Position numbers and translations under genes: made by a program
The notes under the pieces: model-generated
What the model was told of the DNA's origin: nothing
The model's input: only the letters and a program-made list of their open reading frames with translations
The model's database searches: none
NCBI GenBank assembly: GCA_030266915.1
Contig: JAJDIZ010000009.1
Location: 1 to 38,461, forward strand
Reading direction: 5' to 3'
DNA length: 38,461 bases
Source of the DNA: Ruminococcaceae bacterium OttesenSCG-928-D13
Lineage (GTDB): Bacteria > Bacillota > Clostridia > Oscillospirales > Ruminococcaceae
In this document: positions 3,117-32,230 of the stretch, piece after piece
Position numbering within the stretch: the stretch's first letter is position 1
Layout: every line of letters begins with the position of its first letter

Positions 3117-3614
3117 TTACACTGCCAATAAGGCGTTTGCTTTTTCGCATATGTTGTACAGTTCATCGTGCTTTTGCTCAAGCAGAGGTGTTATTTGCTC
3201 CGTTGTGGCTTTGCCAAACCTCCGGTAAACGAGGTATGGCAGCGCCCAGCCGGCAAAGCCGGGAATGGCCAGAACGATGCTCAGCGGGAGGATTCCCCCC
3301 ACAATGGCAAATACCGCGCCTGCCATAAAAGCCGTACCCACCACGCCAATCACCATTGCGGCAATCATGGCTTTGCTGGTTTTGGTCGCCTCCAGCCGAG
3401 CCACTTCCTTCAGCTCCCCGTCAAACTGGCGTTGCAGCCGTGTCAATTCCGCCTTGTTGCGCAGTTTGCGGTCCCGCTTGAACCGCAGTGCGACATGATC
3501 TATCCGCTCGATAGGGTAGGAGGTGCCTTCCAGCGTCCACCCGAAATTCTCGTAGCCGTCCACACACATGGATGCGACGCTTTGCTTCACCGAAACCTCC
3601 AGGTACACTGGCAA
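3117..3614 (-). CDS. Hypothetical membrane protein with hydrophobic hairpin
   Basis: 165 aa; two hydrophobic segments MIAAMVIGVVGTAFMAGAVFAIVGGILPLSIVLAIPGFAGWALPYLVY; colinear with small genes downstream. Confidence 0.6.
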   Translation of the reverse strand: MPVYLEVSVKQSVASMCVDGYENFGWTLEGTSYPIERIDHVALRFKRDRKLRNKAELTRLQRQFDGELKEVARLEATKTSKAMIAAMVIGVVGTAFMAGAVFAIVGGILPLSIVLAIPGFAGWALPYLVYRRFGKATTEQITPLLEQKHDELYNICEKANALLAV

Positions 3615-3831: not shown

Positions 3832-4308
3832 ATGAATCCATTTTTATATAGAAGCGAATATCGCCTTAACGACGACAGCGATGATATCGTGTACTATTCT
3901 GAGGCGATGGATGCATATATCCGAGTGACCAAAGCACAATTTCTTGCCGATAACCCCACCCTTACGGAGCAAGACTTCGAATATTACAAGAAGTGGTCTG
4001 ATGACAGTTGGCATGAAATCTATAAAAATGATCGAAGTCAAGGTCGTAGACGCTCGCATAGTAACGAAGCGGCAGATAGTATTGAGAACCTCATTGACAG
4101 AACTGCCGTGGTCGAGAACGATGATGTCGCTTCTGTTCTGAAAACCATACTGACACCCACACAACACAGGCGCTTTATTCTCAACGCTGTTTACGGCTTT
4201 AGCACAGTAGAGATTGCCGAAATGGAAGGCTGCAACCAGAGCGTAATATCGCGTAGTATTTCGGTTGCCAGAAGCATACTGAAAAAATATTTTTCTGGCA
4301 TAGCATAA
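3832..4308 (+). CDS. Sigma-70 region 4-like regulatory protein of a mobile element
   Basis: 158 aa from MNPFLYRSEYRLND..; C-terminal HTH RFILNAVYGFSTVEIAEMEGCNQSVISRSISVARSILKKYF; GGAGG RBS. Confidence 0.7.
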   Translation: MNPFLYRSEYRLNDDSDDIVYYSEAMDAYIRVTKAQFLADNPTLTEQDFEYYKKWSDDSWHEIYKNDRSQGRRRSHSNEAADSIENLIDRTAVVENDDVASVLKTILTPTQHRRFILNAVYGFSTVEIAEMEGCNQSVISRSISVARSILKKYFSGIA

Positions 4309-4389
4309 ATCGGCCTCTCCCGTGGTCTATATATGAGGGCGCTTTTTTATTGGACCTTGCCCTGCAAGAAGAATATCCGGCATCACAGG

Positions 4390-4800
4390 CACACTAACCA
4401 ACGTGCTTTGCGAGGAAGGACCTCGCAGGGTAAGCGACACCGGGAGAAGCGCGATGACCTCCTGCGGCGGGCATGACCCGCCGTGAAAGTCGGCCAAAGT
4501 GGGTAGCGGCGCGGCGGGGTTTCCCGCGGCGCAGTGGCCCCAAAGGTGCGAGCGCCACCCTTCTGCCCGGAAGACAGCCCACGGCGGGTTGTTTTGCCAT
4601 AACAGCGTTGGGGCTAACGAGACTTCTGTCCAGCGACAGCACACACGCAATCGGGGCAGCCGGCAGAGAACCTGGCGGGGGTGAAAATCCCATGAGCGGA
4701 ACCAGCCACTCCGCTGCCTGTGAAAAGGTTGGCATCAAGTCAACCGAGCCGCCCTGGAACCCAGCTTTGCTGGGCGCCAGCCTTTGGGGAAGTAGTGTCA
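4390..4800. other. Hairpin-rich noncoding block, candidate structured RNA or DNA processing site
   Basis: Many strong GC hairpins (CGGCGGGcatgaCCCGCCG, GCGGCGGGGtttCCCGCGGCGC, CCCAGCtttGCTGGG); only unconvincing overlapping ORFs on both strands. Confidence 0.4.
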
Positions 4801-4830
4801 AATACAAAGGCAAATGCAAATATACGTAAC

Positions 4831-4866: not shown

Positions 4867-4872
4867 TACCAC

Positions 4873-4930
4873 GGAGCCATTCCGGCATTCATGTAGTACA
4901 TCTATTCAATGTTTCTGGAGGGATGGCTCC
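4873..4930. repeat. Inverted repeat
   Basis: GGAGCCATTCC (4873-4883) / GGGATGGCTCC (4920-4930), 10/11 complementary. Confidence 0.5.
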
Positions 4931-4979
4931 GTTCATGTATCATCAAAAATGCAATTATTTTGAATATAGCGGGTGAATT

Positions 4980-5165
4980 ATGAATTTAACAAATAGGTCA
5001 ATATCATCCAGCAGAATCCGAAAAGTCGAATTTGAGTATGATGGATCCGATGAATCATTTAACAAATTCTTAACTGCGTTAGCCTTTGATTATCTCCAGA
5101 AAGAGGAAAGTATGAAAAGTGCCGCTGATTCTGTTCAATCCGTAGAAGTTGACGCAATTGCGTAG
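4980..5165 (+). CDS. Small element-encoded protein upstream of serine recombinase
   Basis: 61 aa MNLTNRSISSSRIRKVEFEYDGSDESFNKFLTALAFDYLQKEE...; positional analogue of TnpW-type small genes. Confidence 0.45.
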   Translation: MNLTNRSISSSRIRKVEFEYDGSDESFNKFLTALAFDYLQKEESMKSAADSVQSVEVDAIA

Positions 5166-5285: not shown

Positions 5286-5720
5286 ATGAATCAAACACAA
5301 AAACTGCCAGAGGGAGCGAATGTACTGGATTATGGCCGCCTATCCCGTGATGAGGATAAGGACCTCAACTCACTGAACAACCAGATGGATATCCTACGCG
5401 AGTACGGTGTCTCGAACGGCTACAATATCGTGGGTGAGTTCTACGACGACAATGTGAGCGGCATGACCTTCGACCGGGAGGGATTGGAAAAAATGCTGGA
5501 CACAATTGAAGAACATGGTAATATCCATGCTATTCTGGTCAAAGACCTCTCCCGCCTGGGGCGGCACAGAATTAAAACCCCGCTGCTCATTGAACAGTTG
5601 GAACGCAAAGGTGTGCGGGTCATCTCAGTGACGGAGGGGATTGACACTTCCAATGAGGATCATGACCTGGAAATAGCGATAAAGCAAATGATGAAGGACA
5701 AATGCTACCATGGAAGGTAA
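5286..5720 (+). pseudogene. Serine recombinase, N-terminal catalytic domain only (truncated)
   Basis: LDYGRLSRDEDKD (catalytic Ser), VKDLSRLGRHRIK; terminates at ...IKQMMKDKCYHGR* where large recombinases continue. Confidence 0.75.
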
Positions 5721-5765: not shown

Positions 5766-6179
5766 CTACCCATTTTGCGACAGCCCCGCCTTGAAACGTA
5801 CAGCATCCGCGCACAGCGTCATGAAGTCGGTCGAAAACGGAATGCCGGGGGCATCCATGGAGATAAAGCCGATGCCCTTTTTTGCGAGGCCATTCAGCCA
5901 TGGAACCACATCCAGGTATCGCCGCCCAATGCGTGAAAGATTGCGGGTAATCACCACATCAATTGCACCAGCCTGGATATCGGCATTCAGTTGACGAAAC
6001 CCCGGCCGGCTTTCGAATCGCAAACCACTGTAGCCATTGTCCCGGTAGATTCTCAGATTGCGGTAATGGTTTTTTATGGCGTATTCCTTCATCAGCATTT
6101 CCTGCATCTCTATAGCTGGGTCATCCTCATGATTTACTCGGCAGTAAATCGCCACTCTCAGTTCGCCCATCAAGTTCAC
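5766..6179 (-). CDS. Small serine-recombinase-like protein lacking the catalytic serine
   Basis: 137 aa; VAIYCRVNHED (Ser replaced by Asn), VITRNLSRIGRRYLDV; overlaps the upstream recombinase ORF. Confidence 0.75.
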   Translation of the reverse strand: MNLMGELRVAIYCRVNHEDDPAIEMQEMLMKEYAIKNHYRNLRIYRDNGYSGLRFESRPGFRQLNADIQAGAIDVVITRNLSRIGRRYLDVVPWLNGLAKKGIGFISMDAPGIPFSTDFMTLCADAVRFKAGLSQNG

Positions 6180-7812
6180 CCCCCATCTGCCCGACGAATC
6201 GGTAAGTTATGCGTACATCCTGAACTCTGTTGCTAAAGTCACCCACACGTTCGCCAATCTCGATTGATTCAATCAACTCATGCAGGGTATTACGATCCGG
6301 CTGATCCAGCGCAAGATATGCCCGTAGGCGCTGTATCCACTCGTCCACGTCATGCGCCACCTGTTCTGCTGCCGCCAAGGCTTTGGACAACTGCCTGTGT
6401 TTTGCTTGCTTTTCCGCCCGTTCGGTGTCGGCGGCGGCAGTGAGTGACTGAAAGGTCTCGGGCGATATTTTTCCAGCCAACCTGTCTTCGTAGAGCGACA
6501 TGCCCAGGCCATCCAGTTCATGCATACGATCCGAGAGCTGTTCCAGCTCTTTTTTTGTATCCAGCAACGCCGGCAGCGAATGCCTGCTGCGCAGCCTGTC
6601 CACGACACCTTCCTCGTCTATTTCCGCCATAGCAAGCTGTGATTGAACATCTGCCTGCACCAGCTTCAAAAGCACTTTCTCAGAAATGGTGTGCCAGGAG
6701 CATTCGGCGCCACCAGTACGGCTGTGCAGGCTGCAATAGTAACGCGGGTAGCGAACCACCCTCCCATCCGTTTTGCGCCGCTGTACGGTCGAGGTGCAGA
6801 CCATCGAATGGCCATTGGAGCACACCAGCAGCCCAGCAAACAAACTACGCTCCGGTTTTTTTACATCCGCGGGGTTGCAGCGACTCAATGATATTCTCTG
6901 CACAGCGTTCCACATTTCCTGCGAAACAATTGCCTCGTGGGTATTGTCAGCCCTGGCCCACGCCTCCTCGGGCCGATGCACAGTGGTTTTGTCTTTGTAG
7001 GAGCGCGTCCCGGTAATCAGTTTTACTGTATGGCCGAGATAGACCTCGTTGTGGAGCATGAGTTTCACGGTGCGGTCAGTCCAGACGGTGACATGCCGAT
7101 AGGGATTCTCCCGCCCCTCCCGCTGGAACCAGTAAGCCCGTGGAGGGAGTATGCCGTCGTTGTTGAGTGCTGCCGCTATTTTGGCGTAGCCGGTCTTTTG
7201 TGCCCTGAGTGTAAATATCCGCCTTACGATATCGGCAGCATAGGGGTCCACGGCCAGCCGGGCAGGATGATCCGGGTTCTTTATGTACCCATACGGCGCA
7301 TAAGAACCGATGTACTCCCCGGCATGGGCCTTGGCGTGCAGCACGGACCGTATTTTCCGGCTTAGATCTCGAAGATGGTAGTCGTTCAGCAGGGAGCGGA
7401 AGGGCAGTAGGTCGTCGTTGCCCTCGCTGTCGATGTCATCCATCAAAGCGATGAACCGGCAGCCAAGCCGCGGGAATACCTCATCGGTGTAGCGGCCCAC
7501 CTCAATGTAATCACGCCCCAAGCGGGAAAGGTCTTTCACCAGAATCAAGTCAATTCGCCCAGCCTCGGCATCCGCCACCATCCGCTCAAAACCGGGACGG
7601 TGGAAATTGCCCCCACTGAAACCATCGTCGGTGTAGGTGTCCACCACGTTCCAGCCCCGCAGCAGAGCATACTCCCGGAGCATAACCTTTTGGTTTTCGA
7701 TGCTGGTGGAATCGCGCTGGAAGGGGTTGCCCTTCCGCTTGCCCTTGGCGCTGTTGGCGGTATCCTCCACGCTCAACCGGGTATAAATGCCTACATCATA
7801 CCGCCTGTTCAT
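6127..7812 (-). CDS. Large serine recombinase
   Basis: MNRRYDVGIYTRLSVEDTAN..., LVKDLSRLGRDYIEVG, recombinase and zinc-ribbon domains (CSNGHSM...CSLHSRTGGAEC). Confidence 0.93.
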   Translation of the reverse strand: MNRRYDVGIYTRLSVEDTANSAKGKRKGNPFQRDSTSIENQKVMLREYALLRGWNVVDTYTDDGFSGGNFHRPGFERMVADAEAGRIDLILVKDLSRLGRDYIEVGRYTDEVFPRLGCRFIALMDDIDSEGNDDLLPFRSLLNDYHLRDLSRKIRSVLHAKAHAGEYIGSYAPYGYIKNPDHPARLAVDPYAADIVRRIFTLRAQKTGYAKIAAALNNDGILPPRAYWFQREGRENPYRHVTVWTDRTVKLMLHNEVYLGHTVKLITGTRSYKDKTTVHRPEEAWARADNTHEAIVSQEMWNAVQRISLSRCNPADVKKPERSLFAGLLVCSNGHSMVCTSTVQRRKTDGRVVRYPRYYCSLHSRTGGAECSWHTISEKVLLKLVQADVQSQLAMAEIDEEGVVDRLRSRHSLPALLDTKKELEQLSDRMHELDGLGMSLYEDRLAGKISPETFQSLTAAADTERAEKQAKHRQLSKALAAAEQVAHDVDEWIQRLRAYLALDQPDRNTLHELIESIEIGERVGDFSNRVQDVRITYRFVGQMGGELDGRTESGDLLPSKS

Positions 7813-9454
7813 AGGTTTCCACCTCCAGGCCAGCCAGCGAATTGCTGACATCGCCCACAAAACGATAGACGATGTTGACATGGCACTCACGCTGGCCATT
7901 CACCACCACCGGCGCCGAGATGTCAATGTGGTCGATTAATTCCAGCAGAATAGCCTGGGATAGTGTTTCCAGCGCCGCGTATTTGCGGATGGCTTTCGCC
8001 CAGGCGTCCACATCGCACCATTGCTGCTCCCCTTGCTCCACCTTATCCCGCAGGATTTTCAAGCTGTCGGTCTTGTCGGTGCGCTCCCGCTCGTACTTGG
8101 GCATTAGGCTTTGGAACATGGATTCGGTCACAACGCCCCGCACCCGGTCCTCATAGAGCGTTTGCATGATGCGCTCAAGTTCCACCAAACGGGTTTCCGC
8201 AGCCTTTAGTTCCTGCCGGTAGGTTGTAAGGTAGGCCAGCCCCTCCCGGTTTTTGGTGTCCACGATACGCCGCATGACCCGATGCTCGTCCCACTCCACC
8301 CGCTGCGCGTTGGCTCGGATATCGTGGAGAACCAGTTCAGTGAGCACCGCCTCGGAAATGCTGTGGACGGTACAGGCACTCTTGCCGCTGCGGGCGTAGT
8401 TGCCGCATATAAAGTAGACACGTTTCCATGGATCACCATTTTTGTAAACGCCTTTTTCGGTGGAACATTTCATGGTGAAACCACAATCGGCACAGCGCAG
8501 CAGGCCGACAAACTTGCTCTGCGGGCCATCCGCGCATTTGCGGGGCATGTAGCCCTTCTCGTCCAGCAAGCGTACCGTCTCCCAGGTTTCGGGATCAATC
8601 AGTGGCTCGTGGGTGTTTTCCACCCGCACCCACTGCTCCTCCGGCTTGCCCACCAGCTTGTGGTTTTTGTAGGACACGGTGCCTGTTTTGCCCTGCACCA
8701 TATGCCCGGCATAGACCTCATTGCGCAGAATCACCTTCACGCTGCTCATGTTCCAGATGCCGTTTTCCTTGCGGGGATTTTCCCTGCCATTGCGGCGGTA
8801 ATAGATTTGCTTGGGCGAGGGCACCTTTTCCTCGTTGAAGGTGGTGGCGATGGCCCGAAAACCGATGCCCTGACTTCGCATGGCGAACATCCGCCGCACG
8901 ATGGGCGCGGTCTCCTCGTCAATGACCAGATGGTGTTTGTCCTGCGGGTCCCGCATATACCCTATGGGGGCATAGGTGCCCATGAATTTTCCCTGGGCCA
9001 TGCAGGCCCGCTTGACCGCCCGCACCTTCTTGCTGGTGTCTTTAGAGTAAAATTCGTTAAATAGGTTACGGTACACCGCCATATCATTGTCGCCCATCAT
9101 GGTATCAACCGAGTCGTTCAGGGCGATGAAGCGGCAGCCCAGGGCAGGCAGGGTCTCTTCGGTGAGCTTGCCCACCTCGATGTAATTACGTCCCAGGCGG
9201 GACAAGTCCTTGACCACAATCACGTTGATGCGGCCATCCCGCACGTCCTGCATCATTCGCTGAAACGCAGGCCGTTCAAAATTCGTGCCGGTCCAGCCAT
9301 CATCGATATAGATGTCTCTGATTTCCCACCCCTCTTCCTCGGCATATTTCGTCAGCAAAAGCCTCTGGTTTTCTACGCTGACGGATTCGCCCGCGCGCAG
9401 GTCGTCCTTAGACAGCCGCACGTAGAGACCGGCCATGTAATCGGTTTTGCCCAT
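7796..9454 (-). CDS. Large serine recombinase
   Basis: MGKTDYMAGLYVRLSKDD..., VVKDLSRLGRNYIEVG, zinc ribbon CADCGF...C; overlaps the next gene by 17 nt. Confidence 0.93.
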   Translation of the reverse strand: MGKTDYMAGLYVRLSKDDLRAGESVSVENQRLLLTKYAEEEGWEIRDIYIDDGWTGTNFERPAFQRMMQDVRDGRINVIVVKDLSRLGRNYIEVGKLTEETLPALGCRFIALNDSVDTMMGDNDMAVYRNLFNEFYSKDTSKKVRAVKRACMAQGKFMGTYAPIGYMRDPQDKHHLVIDEETAPIVRRMFAMRSQGIGFRAIATTFNEEKVPSPKQIYYRRNGRENPRKENGIWNMSSVKVILRNEVYAGHMVQGKTGTVSYKNHKLVGKPEEQWVRVENTHEPLIDPETWETVRLLDEKGYMPRKCADGPQSKFVGLLRCADCGFTMKCSTEKGVYKNGDPWKRVYFICGNYARSGKSACTVHSISEAVLTELVLHDIRANAQRVEWDEHRVMRRIVDTKNREGLAYLTTYRQELKAAETRLVELERIMQTLYEDRVRGVVTESMFQSLMPKYERERTDKTDSLKILRDKVEQGEQQWCDVDAWAKAIRKYAALETLSQAILLELIDHIDISAPVVVNGQRECHVNIVYRFVGDVSNSLAGLEVETYEQAV

Positions 9455-9561
9455 TGTCAATCCTCCAGTTCTATGGGCAACCACGCCGGTGGGCGATACG
9501 ATCTCTCCAGCTTTAGGTTACCTTGGAATGCAGCCTGTTTACAAGGCCCCAGACGCTCTTT

Positions 9562-9796: not shown

Positions 9797-9821
9797 ACCG
9801 GGCTACTCAAAGTAACCCGGT
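9797..9821. terminator. Hairpin overlapping the 3' end of the DinG-like gene
   Basis: ACCGGGcTACTcaaAGTAaCCCGGT followed by GCTTTTTT on +; T-rich also on minus. Confidence 0.5.
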
Positions 9822-12145
9822 GCTTTTTTCGTTCGCAGAAATGTGCCGACATCTTGCATATTGCCGGTCACCCGGCAACTCGGCAGTGCGCGGAGCACCT
9901 GTTCCCGGTAGGGAGCACCCTCGCGGGCTCGACAATCCAGCAAAGCCACCACACCGCTGTCGGTCTCGGTGCGGATAAGCCGGCCAAAGCCCTGTTTTAG
10001 TTTCACCAACATATCTGGCAGTACCACACTATCCTTATAGGCAGCCATGTTTGGGTAGAGAGACTGCTCATACTCGGTGATGGGGTCGGGCACAGCGAAG
10101 GGGAGCCGCACGATGATGAGCATGGAGAGGGCATCTCCGGGGATGTCGATACCCTCCCACAGCGCACCAGAGGCGAACAGGACGCCATTGCCACTCTCCT
10201 TGAACTGATTGATGGCGGTGGTGTCACCCCGTCCCATGCGAAACATGGGGAACGGCAGATCTCTATGCAGTAGTGTTGTGTACACCAACCCCATCGCATT
10301 GTAGGAAGTGAACAGCACTGCCGCATGGGCATGCGATGCAAGGATAAGCCGTTCCACTTCGTCTGAAATGGCATCCAGATATTCACGGTTGTGGTTGTCG
10401 GGGAAGGGTGTTTGCTCACTGATGTACAGCAGGGTGTTGGCATGATGATCAAATGGCGAGGGCTTGCTGGTTTCCATCTGGTACGCTTCGGGCAGCCGGT
10501 GCAGACCGAGCGTCTGCTTGATGCGGCTGAAATCCCCGGCTGCCGACAGGGTGCCGGAGGTAAGCACGATGGGCAATCCCTTGCTCCAGAAATCCTGCAA
10601 GAGCAGCTCGTCCAGGTTTTTCGGGATGGCACAAAGAGCAGTATCAGCGCCACGCTCTTCCGTCCAACAGATGAGGCTGGTATGCTTTTCCAGTATGGAG
10701 ACACGTTTCAGGATACTGGTCAATTCCCACAGGATGTGGGAATGCCGGCCCCTATGCCGGGCAGAAACCCGCTGCTCGTGCAGCGCGGCCATCAGGTCAG
10801 AGCAAATGCACCGTATGTTGCGCAGATGTCGGGTAGAGTCTTTGTCCAAAAAAACAGTGAGTTTGTCCGCATCCTCTTCAATTTCCCCGATGGCTGTACC
10901 GGCCAGTAGGTGCTTGGTCAAGCGGCCATTCTGCCCGCGCAGTTTTTTTGCATTGGTTCGGATGGTTTCGGCGGATTCGCCGGACCGCATGGTCAGCGTG
11001 TAAATTTCCTCCGTCACAAGCGGAATCTCAGCAGCTGCCAGTTCCACCCCGTACAACTGACGCGCGGCGGCAAGAAACTTGTGTCCCTCATCGATGATGA
11101 CGGCCTGGTAATGCGGAAGCAGGGGCTTTTGCTTGTCCCGGCGGCGGTGGATATCCGCCAGCAGGAACTGATGATTACAAATCTGAAAATCATGCCGGTT
11201 GGATTGCACATGCGCCAGATGGCGGCGGTGCCGACAGATTTCGCGGTGGGGGCAGTTGTAGTCGCACCGGCCCGATACACCGATCCGCCGCTTCATGTAG
11301 GGCGTGAGGTTCTCCACGCTGGCCAAATCGACAGCGGCTGTTTGTTCCAGCAGGGGAAGGAGCAACGCTGCGGTTGCTTCGTCCGCATCCATAAGGTAGG
11401 TACGCAGGCGGCGTTCGCAGAGGTAGTGCTCCCGGCCTTTGCGCAGCACCGCGGTCAGCGGTTCACGGATGATACCACCTTCCATCAGGATACGCGACAG
11501 TTCGGGGATGTATTCGCGCACCAGGGCGTTCTGAAGGGCGATGCTGGAGGTGGATACCACCACAGGCATCCGGGCGCTGTCGGCCCAATTCTGGCCGGGA
11601 AACGCGCCCCGGTACCAGAAGTCGTTGGCCCGGCCCCGCTTCACAAGTGTGGCGGAGGTCAGGTAAGCAAGGGTCTTTCCAACGCCCACCTCGGCCTCGG
11701 ACAAAGAAACACGGCGCCTGCACAGGGCGTCTAAAGTGTGGGCGGCCAGCTCTGCCTGGGACCGGCGTAAAGTATAGCCGTGGGCGGGTAGCAGTTTGTG
11801 GAACACATGCTCCAGTATCTGTGCAAGCTCTTCCTCGGACAGTTTTTCGCCCGGCGTCCTGTCGGCCTCATAGCGGCTCCGCCCAGTTGTGAACAATGTG
11901 CGTATCTTGGCTGCTGCCTTGCCGAAGTCCTCGTCCCCCAGGGGATTCTTTCGGCGGGAGATGAGCTGGGAACGGTTGGTTTTTAGATCATAGGCGCAAT
12001 AGCGATAGCCATTGGACATTTCTTTCTCGAACAGGACACAGCCGTAGGCGGTGAACAGCGGCTTGCCCTCATCATAGGTGTGGCCGAGCAGGCCGAAAGG
12101 AATATTAAAGTCAATTTCGTGGGTATTGGGGTTGTATATATGCAT
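9803..12145 (-). CDS. DinG-family ATP-dependent helicase
   Basis: 780 aa; SEAEVGVGKTLAYL, VIIDEGHKFL, GALWEGIDIPGD, QGFGRLIRTETDSG motifs. Confidence 0.88.
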   Translation of the reverse strand: MHIYNPNTHEIDFNIPFGLLGHTYDEGKPLFTAYGCVLFEKEMSNGYRYCAYDLKTNRSQLISRRKNPLGDEDFGKAAAKIRTLFTTGRSRYEADRTPGEKLSEEELAQILEHVFHKLLPAHGYTLRRSQAELAAHTLDALCRRRVSLSEAEVGVGKTLAYLTSATLVKRGRANDFWYRGAFPGQNWADSARMPVVVSTSSIALQNALVREYIPELSRILMEGGIIREPLTAVLRKGREHYLCERRLRTYLMDADEATAALLLPLLEQTAAVDLASVENLTPYMKRRIGVSGRCDYNCPHREICRHRRHLAHVQSNRHDFQICNHQFLLADIHRRRDKQKPLLPHYQAVIIDEGHKFLAAARQLYGVELAAAEIPLVTEEIYTLTMRSGESAETIRTNAKKLRGQNGRLTKHLLAGTAIGEIEEDADKLTVFLDKDSTRHLRNIRCICSDLMAALHEQRVSARHRGRHSHILWELTSILKRVSILEKHTSLICWTEERGADTALCAIPKNLDELLLQDFWSKGLPIVLTSGTLSAAGDFSRIKQTLGLHRLPEAYQMETSKPSPFDHHANTLLYISEQTPFPDNHNREYLDAISDEVERLILASHAHAAVLFTSYNAMGLVYTTLLHRDLPFPMFRMGRGDTTAINQFKESGNGVLFASGALWEGIDIPGDALSMLIIVRLPFAVPDPITEYEQSLYPNMAAYKDSVVLPDMLVKLKQGFGRLIRTETDSGVVALLDCRAREGAPYREQVLRALPSCRVTGNMQDVGTFLRTKKAPGYFE

Positions 12146-12397: not shown

Positions 12398-12770
12398 GGC
12401 GCAATGCTGTGTTTATGGCTTTTCACCAGGCCGGGCAGTAATCTGCCCGCGCGAAAGCCCACCCCAGCCTTTTTCAGCCAGGTCGGTGCTTTCCCCGCTT
12501 CCGCAGGTTCCCCTCTTCGGGGAAGGGTATCCTTATCCTTCTATGCCTTGTGTCTGCCCATGATCTCATATCGAGAGGGGCGCTGTGCCCAGCCCCTGAA
12601 TGGGGCCGGGCAGTCCTCGCGCGTGGCATGGAAGGGAATGTACCCGGTGATGCCTGATATGGCCGATGGCGCTGGCGTTTTTCAAGGTGCGGCAGAGGTG
12701 AAAATCTGAAAAACTCGATTTTCCCCTTCACTTACTTCTCCGCCAAAGTGGCATTTTGAGTACCGAAAAA

Positions 12771-30796: not shown

Positions 30797-32230
30797 CTAT
30801 CGCTGCTGGCCTTGCTCCTGTGGAGCTGGAACAGCACGCAGGAGCTGGTCGGTATTGGCCTTGGTAACCTGAAGTGAACGCATGTCCTCTCGCGCCTGCC
30901 GGTACTCCCGGTACAGGCGCTTTTTCTCTGTTCGCAGTTTGGCATATTCTGTTTGCAGGGCCTTGATGCCGGGGAGCTTCTGCACACCCAAGGCATCAAA
31001 TGCTTTCTTGGCCGCCTGGTGCAGAAGGATAGCACCCTCATGCTCGGCCCGGAAGGATTTGCTGTATCGGGATGCCTTGTACTGCTGGTAGACCTGTCGG
31101 GTGCGGTTGTAATTACCAATATGCTTTTGCAGTTCGTTTATTTCTGCCATCCGGCCCTCCACCGTTTTAATCTGCTCTGACAGGCTGCGGAAGGTGGCGG
31201 TGGCTGAGGCAACCTGTTCCTCCAGCGTGGTGTATTGGGTAAGGTTGTGCTCCTGCAAATAGATAAGAGTCTTGGCCATTTCTTTCAGGTTGTATAGCTT
31301 TGCCCACCGCTCGTATCCGGCGCCCTTGCCGGCCAGCATGCGGGCCTGTATGTCAATGAGCAGATTGGGCGCCGCATCCTTCTGCACATGGGGGCCTACC
31401 GGCGGGAGAGAAGAATGGCCCGGCGTGCGCTGCCGCACACCAGCAATGCGGTCGCGGATCGCCTGCTCGGTGTAATCACCTTTGAGGGAATCACAGCGGG
31501 TGTACTGCACCTGGGCGGGCCCGTGGTCGTCTGCCAGAGCGCGGAGCCGCAAATGCTTGCCGCGCCGGGACACCTCAATGCCCAGTTTCTCAAGCGCGGC
31601 GATAAAGGCATCAAAGTCAGCGGGTTTCTGCTCCAGGGTGGCATCAATGGCCAGCTTGAGCCGAACCTTGAAGTTAGGCTGCCTTTTCTCACCGAGCCAT
31701 GTACCGTAGTGCCCGCGGCTGGGCTTTGGATCATCAATCACCGACAGACCATGCTCTAGGCATATCTGATCCGAGAGCCGGCGCACTGCGAAGGTCGACC
31801 CCTTGAAGTCCAAAAACTTACGCGTACAATCCAGCGTGGTGGAATTGTAGATGATGTGGTTATGGATATGGGAACGGTCGATATGGGTGGCAACGATAAA
31901 GGCGTGGTTGCCCTTTGTCCAGCGCATGGCCAGTTCCCGGCCCAGGCGGTTAGCCTCCTCCGCAGTGATCTCGCCGGGCTTGAAGGACTGGCGGATATGG
32001 TAGGCCAGCACATTGTGCCGCCCCTGATCGCGTCCGGTGATGTACTTGTACTGCCGCTTGCTAAGAAGGAACTCGGCATCCACAGTGCGTGGGTCGCACT
32101 CGTAACCGGTGACCAACTCACCCTTATCAGTTTTATCAGGGTTTCCAGCATAATCGGTTCGCTCAGCAATGGTCTGCGCAATGCTTTTGCCCTTGTTCAC
32201 ATGCAAGGGTTTGATCCATGTTGCTGCCAT
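30797..32230 (-). CDS. Relaxase / mobilization nuclease (MobA/VirD2-like)
   Basis: ATHIDRSHIHNHIIYNS three-His motif; YKYITGRDQGRHNVLAYHIRQSFKPGEIT; coiled C-terminus. Confidence 0.92.
   Translation of the reverse strand: MAATWIKPLHVNKGKSIAQTIAERTDYAGNPDKTDKGELVTGYECDPRTVDAEFLLSKRQYKYITGRDQGRHNVLAYHIRQSFKPGEITAEEANRLGRELAMRWTKGNHAFIVATHIDRSHIHNHIIYNSTTLDCTRKFLDFKGSTFAVRRLSDQICLEHGLSVIDDPKPSRGHYGTWLGEKRQPNFKVRLKLAIDATLEQKPADFDAFIAALEKLGIEVSRRGKHLRLRALADDHGPAQVQYTRCDSLKGDYTEQAIRDRIAGVRQRTPGHSSLPPVGPHVQKDAAPNLLIDIQARMLAGKGAGYERWAKLYNLKEMAKTLIYLQEHNLTQYTTLEEQVASATATFRSLSEQIKTVEGRMAEINELQKHIGNYNRTRQVYQQYKASRYSKSFRAEHEGAILLHQAAKKAFDALGVQKLPGIKALQTEYAKLRTEKKRLYREYRQAREDMRSLQVTKANTDQLLRAVPAPQEQGQQR

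Follow-up and report, generated by a model that had tools for sequence, protein, structure and literature searches.

What does a block of some 400 nt, densely packed with GC-rich hairpins, do between two genes of a mobile element? The question is raised by positions 4390-4800 of a 38,461-nt stretch of Ruminococcaceae bacterium OttesenSCG-928-D13 (contig JAJDIZ010000009.1, positions 1 to 38,461, hereafter the window). An earlier note on this DNA had seen a candidate structured RNA here and had considered three natures for it: a large element-encoded noncoding RNA, a regulatory leader or a DNA processing site. The block is present on the + strand, its limits lying within ~35 nt of the noncoding structured RNA leader delimited here at 4356-4811 (+). 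With a probability of roughly three in four it is the template of an antiterminator RNA of the type of canT from Tn916, and the leader of a mobile-element operon. The existence of the family, its architecture and its homology to canT come from the present analysis, and the antitermination, which is cis-acting, orientation-specific and processive, was demonstrated for Tn916 and is extended to the window by analogy.

The block belongs to a noncoding RNA family

GC content reaches 0.63-0.64 in the block, against 0.37-0.46 in most of the surrounding sequence. The excess of folding energy over shuffled sequences is modest, with z = -2.29 (+) and -2.17 (-) for 511 nt, and z = -2.91 for the 341 nt cut at the closing helix P1 (4383-4723), where 0 of 100 shuffles folded equally well; energy by itself would not settle the question. 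The block is far beyond chance because of an Rfam match, a relative of 77% identity and covariation of the stems across dozens of loci, and these bear out the claim of a hairpin-dense structured RNA.

RF02913 of Rfam, labelled 'pemK RNA', matches window positions 4614-4695 with 60.5 bits (E=1.3e-8; gathering cut-off 34.8 bits) and was the only family to reach its cut-off in the Rfam scan of the block. The whole-genome search recovered the match as well, with one copy in the genome. The Rfam model, with its 61 positions, describes just the middle part of an RNA that is longer. Of 149 genomes from the same family, 55 have RF02913, at up to nine places per genome, and none of 14 control genomes has it. 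The genome with nine places (G168) indicates that the element class can be multicopy within one cell. Both the Rfam search and the covariation test on homologs that had been proposed for the block were positive, the latter for the stems P1, P2, P6 and P7, and the suggestion of a large element-encoded noncoding RNA has held up in the form of this RNA family. The block almost certainly belongs to the RNA family that contains canT.

A DNA search for the block in 61 relatives returned one close relative only, and a similarity search of plasmid and phage collections returned no match. The close relative, L034, is an 18-kb contig from a genome of the same genus with 77% identity over the block; the similarity begins at ~4314, in intergenic sequence, and the sigma-like gene is absent upstream in L034. 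The two copies differ by 118 substitutions, distributed 46/38/34 over the three codon positions, and by four gaps of 1 nt and one of 5 nt, which break every frame. Because of the even spread of substitutions and the frame-breaking gaps the block is not coding, and a coding reading of the overlapping open reading frames (ORFs) was rejected; the earlier note had called their compositions unlike those of real proteins.

Architecture of the RNA

About 140 relatives define the RNA beyond the Rfam model, and about 70 were read around the core. The parts follow in the order boxA, P1 5′ strand, P2 5′ strand, two variable hairpin regions around the motifs GCCATGACC and GCGAG, P2 3′ strand, core, P6 and P1 3′ strand. 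In the window (all on the + strand), the P1 5′ strand TCACAGGCA at 4383-4391 pairs with TGCCTGTGA at 4715-4723, forming the closing helix, and its outer pair is T-A in the window and G-C in L034. The P2 strands CCAACGT (4398-4404) and GCGTTGG (4605-4611) enclose the variable regions. An optional hairpin at 4407-4429, TTTGCGAGG-AAGGA-CCTCGCAGG, stands ahead of a conserved AAGCG/AGCC; it is part of the minimum-energy fold, and by eye its position varies among relatives. The enlarged P3 domain spans 4449-4554 between GCGCGATGACC and AAGGTGCGAGCG, and a 5′-domain profile trained without the window copy aligned both of its ends with a long insertion between them. The P4 hairpin region (4573-4598, GACAGCC...GGTTGTT) has a register that is, by eye, common to relatives such as L007. 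The core (4614-4695) starts with the box CTAACGAGACT and is followed by the hairpin P6 (4695-4715, AGCGGA...TCCGCT), which shows a compensatory change to AGCGAA/TTCGCT in L034. Beyond P1 lies the hairpin P7 (4780-4811), with the stem GCCTTTG/CAAAGGC and the conserved loop GGGAAGTAGTGTCAAATA.

The stems were tested by comparing, independently of any alignment, the best stem of each sequence with the best stem formed with a 3′ strand borrowed from another member. Over 64 loci including the window, P1 scored 20.3 with its own strand and 14.4 with swapped strands (standard deviation, sd, 0.47), and P2 scored 19.4 and 14.2 (sd 0.33); P6 gave 14.3 and 9.8 (sd 0.31; 64 loci). The distinct stem sequences number 29 for P1 and 32 for P2. 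When 46 long sequences were simply aligned with MAFFT, RNAalifold recovered two short hairpins only, since the positions of P1 and P2 shift by a few nt, and for this reason the swapped-strand tests were used instead. The 5′-domain profile, from whose training the window, L034 and the core were left out, matched L034 with E=1.5e-4 and the window with E=1.4e-3, in the right place and on the right strand and nowhere else in both contigs searched. With only the 3′ part, a profile gave no significant match (E=0.42), owing to the shortness of P7 and its differing loop types; P7 was settled by a search for its loop pattern.

Many loci extend to P7, which has a conserved loop of either of two types (GGGGAAGTAGTGTCRAATA, GGGGTGTCGAGGACAAATA), and P7 scored 16.6 with own and 7.3 with swapped strands (sd 0.6). 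A search of 84,980 genomes with nothing but the first loop, as a pattern of 18 bases, gave 81 places in 80 loci among the matches listed, and 77 of the 81 have a core 35-113 nt upstream; pairing in this set was 15.6 against 10.5 swapped (sd 0.40). One of the four exceptions still has the stem, its start being close to an end of the available sequence, and the other three (Bradyrhizobium, a Deltaproteobacteria bin and an Alphaproteobacteria bin) are without the stem too. Among 40 distinct P7 sequences, 61 double-changed cells were counted against a shuffled mean of 21.7, and the covariation was 0.659 against 0.267 for shuffled sequences, a value reached by 0 of 500 shuffles. All seven pairs change on both sides, 89% of cells are paired, and sliding the register by one drops the pairing sharply. 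In Oscillibacter sp. CAG:155 (L120:5487-5576) two P7 loops occur 72 nt apart after one core, with a good stem in the second only.

Relation to canT of Tn916

RF02913 also matches Tn916, at L035:3323-3423 with 55.0 bits, and this match lies inside canT, the 452-nt region between orf8 and xis (PMC11658703). canT is needed for transcription beyond the terminator T1 and is sufficient for it in a reporter without other Tn916 genes. It is a processive antiterminator, active on unrelated terminators and in one orientation only, and it acts in cis, as was tested with wild-type canT expressed elsewhere (PMC11658703). The mutation canT(S3), a change of ATA to TGC sited 283 nt past the orf8 stop, left <5% activity in the 452-nt construct and lowered conjugation about 100-fold (PMC11658703). 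With the orf8 stop ending at L035:3040, S3 alters 3323-3325, which are positions 1-3 of the RF02913 match. S3 was designed to change an orf5 tyrosine (PMC11658703), and the two tyrosine codons of orf5 both fall within the ATAATGATACT box, which provides an independent reading-frame check of the S3 site. The 162-nt canT deletion (229-390) takes out the entire core.

The RF02913 core, the register of P1 and P2 and the site between a sigma-like regulator and a recombinase are common to Tn916 and the window. P1 (AGTAATCGAATA/TGTTCGATTGCT) and P2 (CGATAAGAA/TTCTTATCG) of the Tn916 RNA, read in L065, an identical stretch, occupy the same places as those of the window. The core box reads ATAATGATACT in Tn916 and CTAACGAGACT in the window, with 8 of 11 positions identical and 3 different. 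The two RNAs differ in P3, a domain of about 100 nt in the window and a short hairpin of about 17 nt in Tn916, and in P7, which is present only in the window. They also differ in the recombinase of their elements, which is a serine recombinase in the window and a tyrosine recombinase in Tn916. A second Rfam element, RF03532 (SQ2397), was seen in Tn916 at L035:1874-2103, overlapping the start of a minus-strand helix-turn-helix gene.

Three other RNAs have a comparable role. The conAn2 RNA of pLS20 is likewise an RNA antiterminator of a conjugation operon, but it acts together with the protein ConAn1. A relation to it was rejected: positions 1-40000 of pLS20 hold no RF02913 match, and the core profile matches nowhere in pLS20. 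EAR of the B. subtilis eps operon and put of HK022 are also RNAs of processive antitermination, in other hosts and operons, and membership of the block in the EAR family was discarded on the Rfam scan given above.

boxA and a possible mechanism

Among the relatives read around the core, the RNA opens with a boxA-like CTTGAAAACTGAATA. Of 71 members, 60 carry C(T)TTGA[AC]AA at a distance of 110-290 nt before the core, against an expected 0.68. The 16S-23S spacers of five member genomes, the window's included, carry ACCTTGAAAACTGAATA or close variants, and that of the window's own genome reads ACCTTGAAAACTGAATAA. Most members start with the boxA sequence of the ribosomal RNA (rRNA) operons of their own genomes. 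boxA is the site where NusB and S10 bind in rRNA antitermination; we know of no rRNA operon with a comparable structured core after boxA. The boxA-to-P1 layout is present in Tn916, whereas in the window boxA is broken up: 4356-4378 (+) reads CTTG-CCCTG-CAAG-AAGAATATCC, boxA being interrupted by a small hairpin. L034 has CTTG-CTCTG-CGAG-AAGAATATCC at this site, split by a tiny hairpin in the same manner. boxA is common in the family and is not taken as defining.

If the canT-type reading is right, activity of an upstream promoter would let the nascent RNA fold from P1 to P7, and the folded RNA would remain with the RNA polymerase that transcribed it. The polymerase so modified would pass over downstream intrinsic terminators, and transcription could then run through that end of the excised circle which carries the recombinase and reach the transfer genes. 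Because the RNA of most relatives begins with the boxA of rRNA operons, NusB and S10 may load first at boxA and the structured part may then stabilise the complex. We infer the role of boxA and NusB, the contact with RNA polymerase and the activity of the window copy; that activity is uncertain, given the disrupted boxA, the altered box and the remnant element.

The name of RF02913 says nothing about its job. The family, widespread and named after a toxin, probably has the same antitermination job as canT, and an action through antitermination is likely by analogy with the single member tested experimentally. More tentatively, 'pemK RNA' could form the core of an antitermination system that ranks among the commonest in gut Clostridia, in which boxA plus a structured RNA lets element operons borrow the rRNA machinery; the window would represent a subtype with boxA replaced and a large extra domain, maybe independent of NusB. 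Under a canT class, mobile elements across many gut Clostridia would share one switch for long operons after excision, and element boundaries would become easy to annotate. Work on the canT mechanism would have ~140 aligned sequences to build on, along with a defined structure, a box that is essential and, in NusB/S10 at boxA, a candidate partner from the host. The Tn916 paper has no mention of boxA, NusB or Rfam (PMC11658703), and in the literature found, of which coverage is incomplete, no paper connects RF02913, canT and boxA. The RF02913-canT link, the full architecture (P1, P2, P7) and the shared rRNA boxA are new as far as that literature goes, and no priority is claimed.

Weighing of the alternatives

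A number of observations weigh against an active antiterminator of the canT type in the window. Antitermination activity is known from Tn916 canT alone among the members, and Tn916 canT is without P7. S3 had little effect within a 400-bp canT fragment (PMC11658703), and two further Tn916-like ends, L036 and L038, gave no match when scanned for RF02913. The window box departs from the Tn916 box at 3 of 11 positions, and the window copy has the interrupted version in place of an intact rRNA-type boxA at its 5′ end. The published 452-bp canT fragment begins inside boxA (PMC11658703), so an intact boxA may not be needed. The recombinase gene of the window element is truncated, and a promoter scan just upstream of the RNA in the window gave no strong or convincing promoter. 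On the supporting side, between the genes of 17 downstream same-strand runs, 18 intrinsic terminators lie along the operon and 4 against it, counted with no matched control operons, and the 19 kb after the RNA of L164, as one such run, holds several; these counts fit antitermination but carry little weight, as any long gene run may hold terminators. The truncated recombinase, the interrupted boxA, the altered box and the single copy in the genome would also agree with a window copy that has decayed and lost its function, a reading compatible with antitermination by the family as a whole. We regard such decay as unlikely, though a serious candidate: P1, P2, P6 and P7 still pair in the window, and L034, at 77% identity, retains the same features including the boxA replacement, which suggests selection on the subtype.

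The earlier suggestion of a regulatory leader was confirmed in its general form; that the RNA is a riboswitch or attenuator of one adjacent gene, through control of termination or translation, is improbable. RF02913 is classed by Rfam as Cis-reg, and a gene of the same orientation follows the RNA. Among 130 distinct copies, the gene behind the RNA falls into a serine recombinase cluster in 56, a tyrosine integrase cluster in 23, PemK/MazF in 17 and ParA in 7 (identified through Pfam on representatives); such genes suit the ends of elements and speak for the canT-type reading. PemK/MazF behind some copies explains the Rfam name that ties the family to PemK, but the downstream genes of the 130 loci form 25 clusters of many unrelated kinds, unlike a ligand-specific riboswitch. 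In addition, the window shows no terminator-like site just past the RNA, and canT is processive and works on unrelated terminators (PMC11658703). The size of the RNA and its ornate conserved structure closed by P1 would suit a discrete trans-acting noncoding RNA or ribozyme of the element. This is very improbable, since canT is reported to act in cis (PMC11658703) and since boxA and the leader position favour action on the RNA's own transcript. Hairpins working as DNA, in an origin of transfer (oriT), a single-strand origin (sso) or a recombination site, could be imagined for a block within a mobile element that adjoins a recombinase gene, and the earlier note had named the first two. This part of its interpretation is hardly credible: the covarying family is that of a strand-specific RNA, and in Tn916 the same element is a cis-acting RNA that works in a single orientation, with oriT and sso mapped apart from canT and canT mutants excising normally (PMC11658703). 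The sole relaxase (PF03432) found in the window lies 26 kb away at 30797-32230, in a scan that did not take in every ORF.

Gene context and other features

The gene upstream of the RNA (3832-4308, +) encodes a small sigma-70-like protein of 158 amino acids (aa), which matches TIGR02937 with E=4e-5, below its cut-off, and has no Pfam match. Tn916 orf7, upstream of canT, is likewise annotated as a sigma factor, and the representative of the largest upstream cluster, which holds 49 of 133, is sigma-like. Between this gene and the RNA, the sequence TATATATGAGGGCG (4328-4341) is identical in L034 despite the different upstream genes and may belong to the RNA's promoter.

The first gene past the RNA is a small ORF of 61 aa (4980-5165, +) without a Pfam or NCBIfam match; the start of a similar ORF is present in L034. 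Between the RNA and this ORF lies an inverted repeat, CGGAGCCATTCC...GGGATGGCTCCG (4872-4933), with no T-run after it. The version in L034 is AGAGCCGT/ACGGCTCT, with two pairs changed on both sides, and the repeat looks like a conserved hairpin too. The small ORF is followed at 5286-5720 (+) by a truncated serine recombinase (PF00239) consisting of the first 144 codons, with 34-41% identity solely to the N-terminal parts of recombinases of 540-640 aa. Because this recombinase is cut short, the element is a remnant. Facing it at 5766-9484 (-) are three consecutive serine recombinase frames (a 137-aa fragment, 590 aa and 562 aa), and near 5720 the first element seems to be adjoined or interrupted by a second one. 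The relaxase gene mentioned above is on the - strand, is of the MobA/VirD2 type and marks another mobilisable segment at the far end of the window. Rfam RF03082 ('dinG RNA') matches at 12453-12534 (-) with 54.7 bits, just upstream of a gene at 9803-12145 (-) with the helicase C-terminal domain PF13307.
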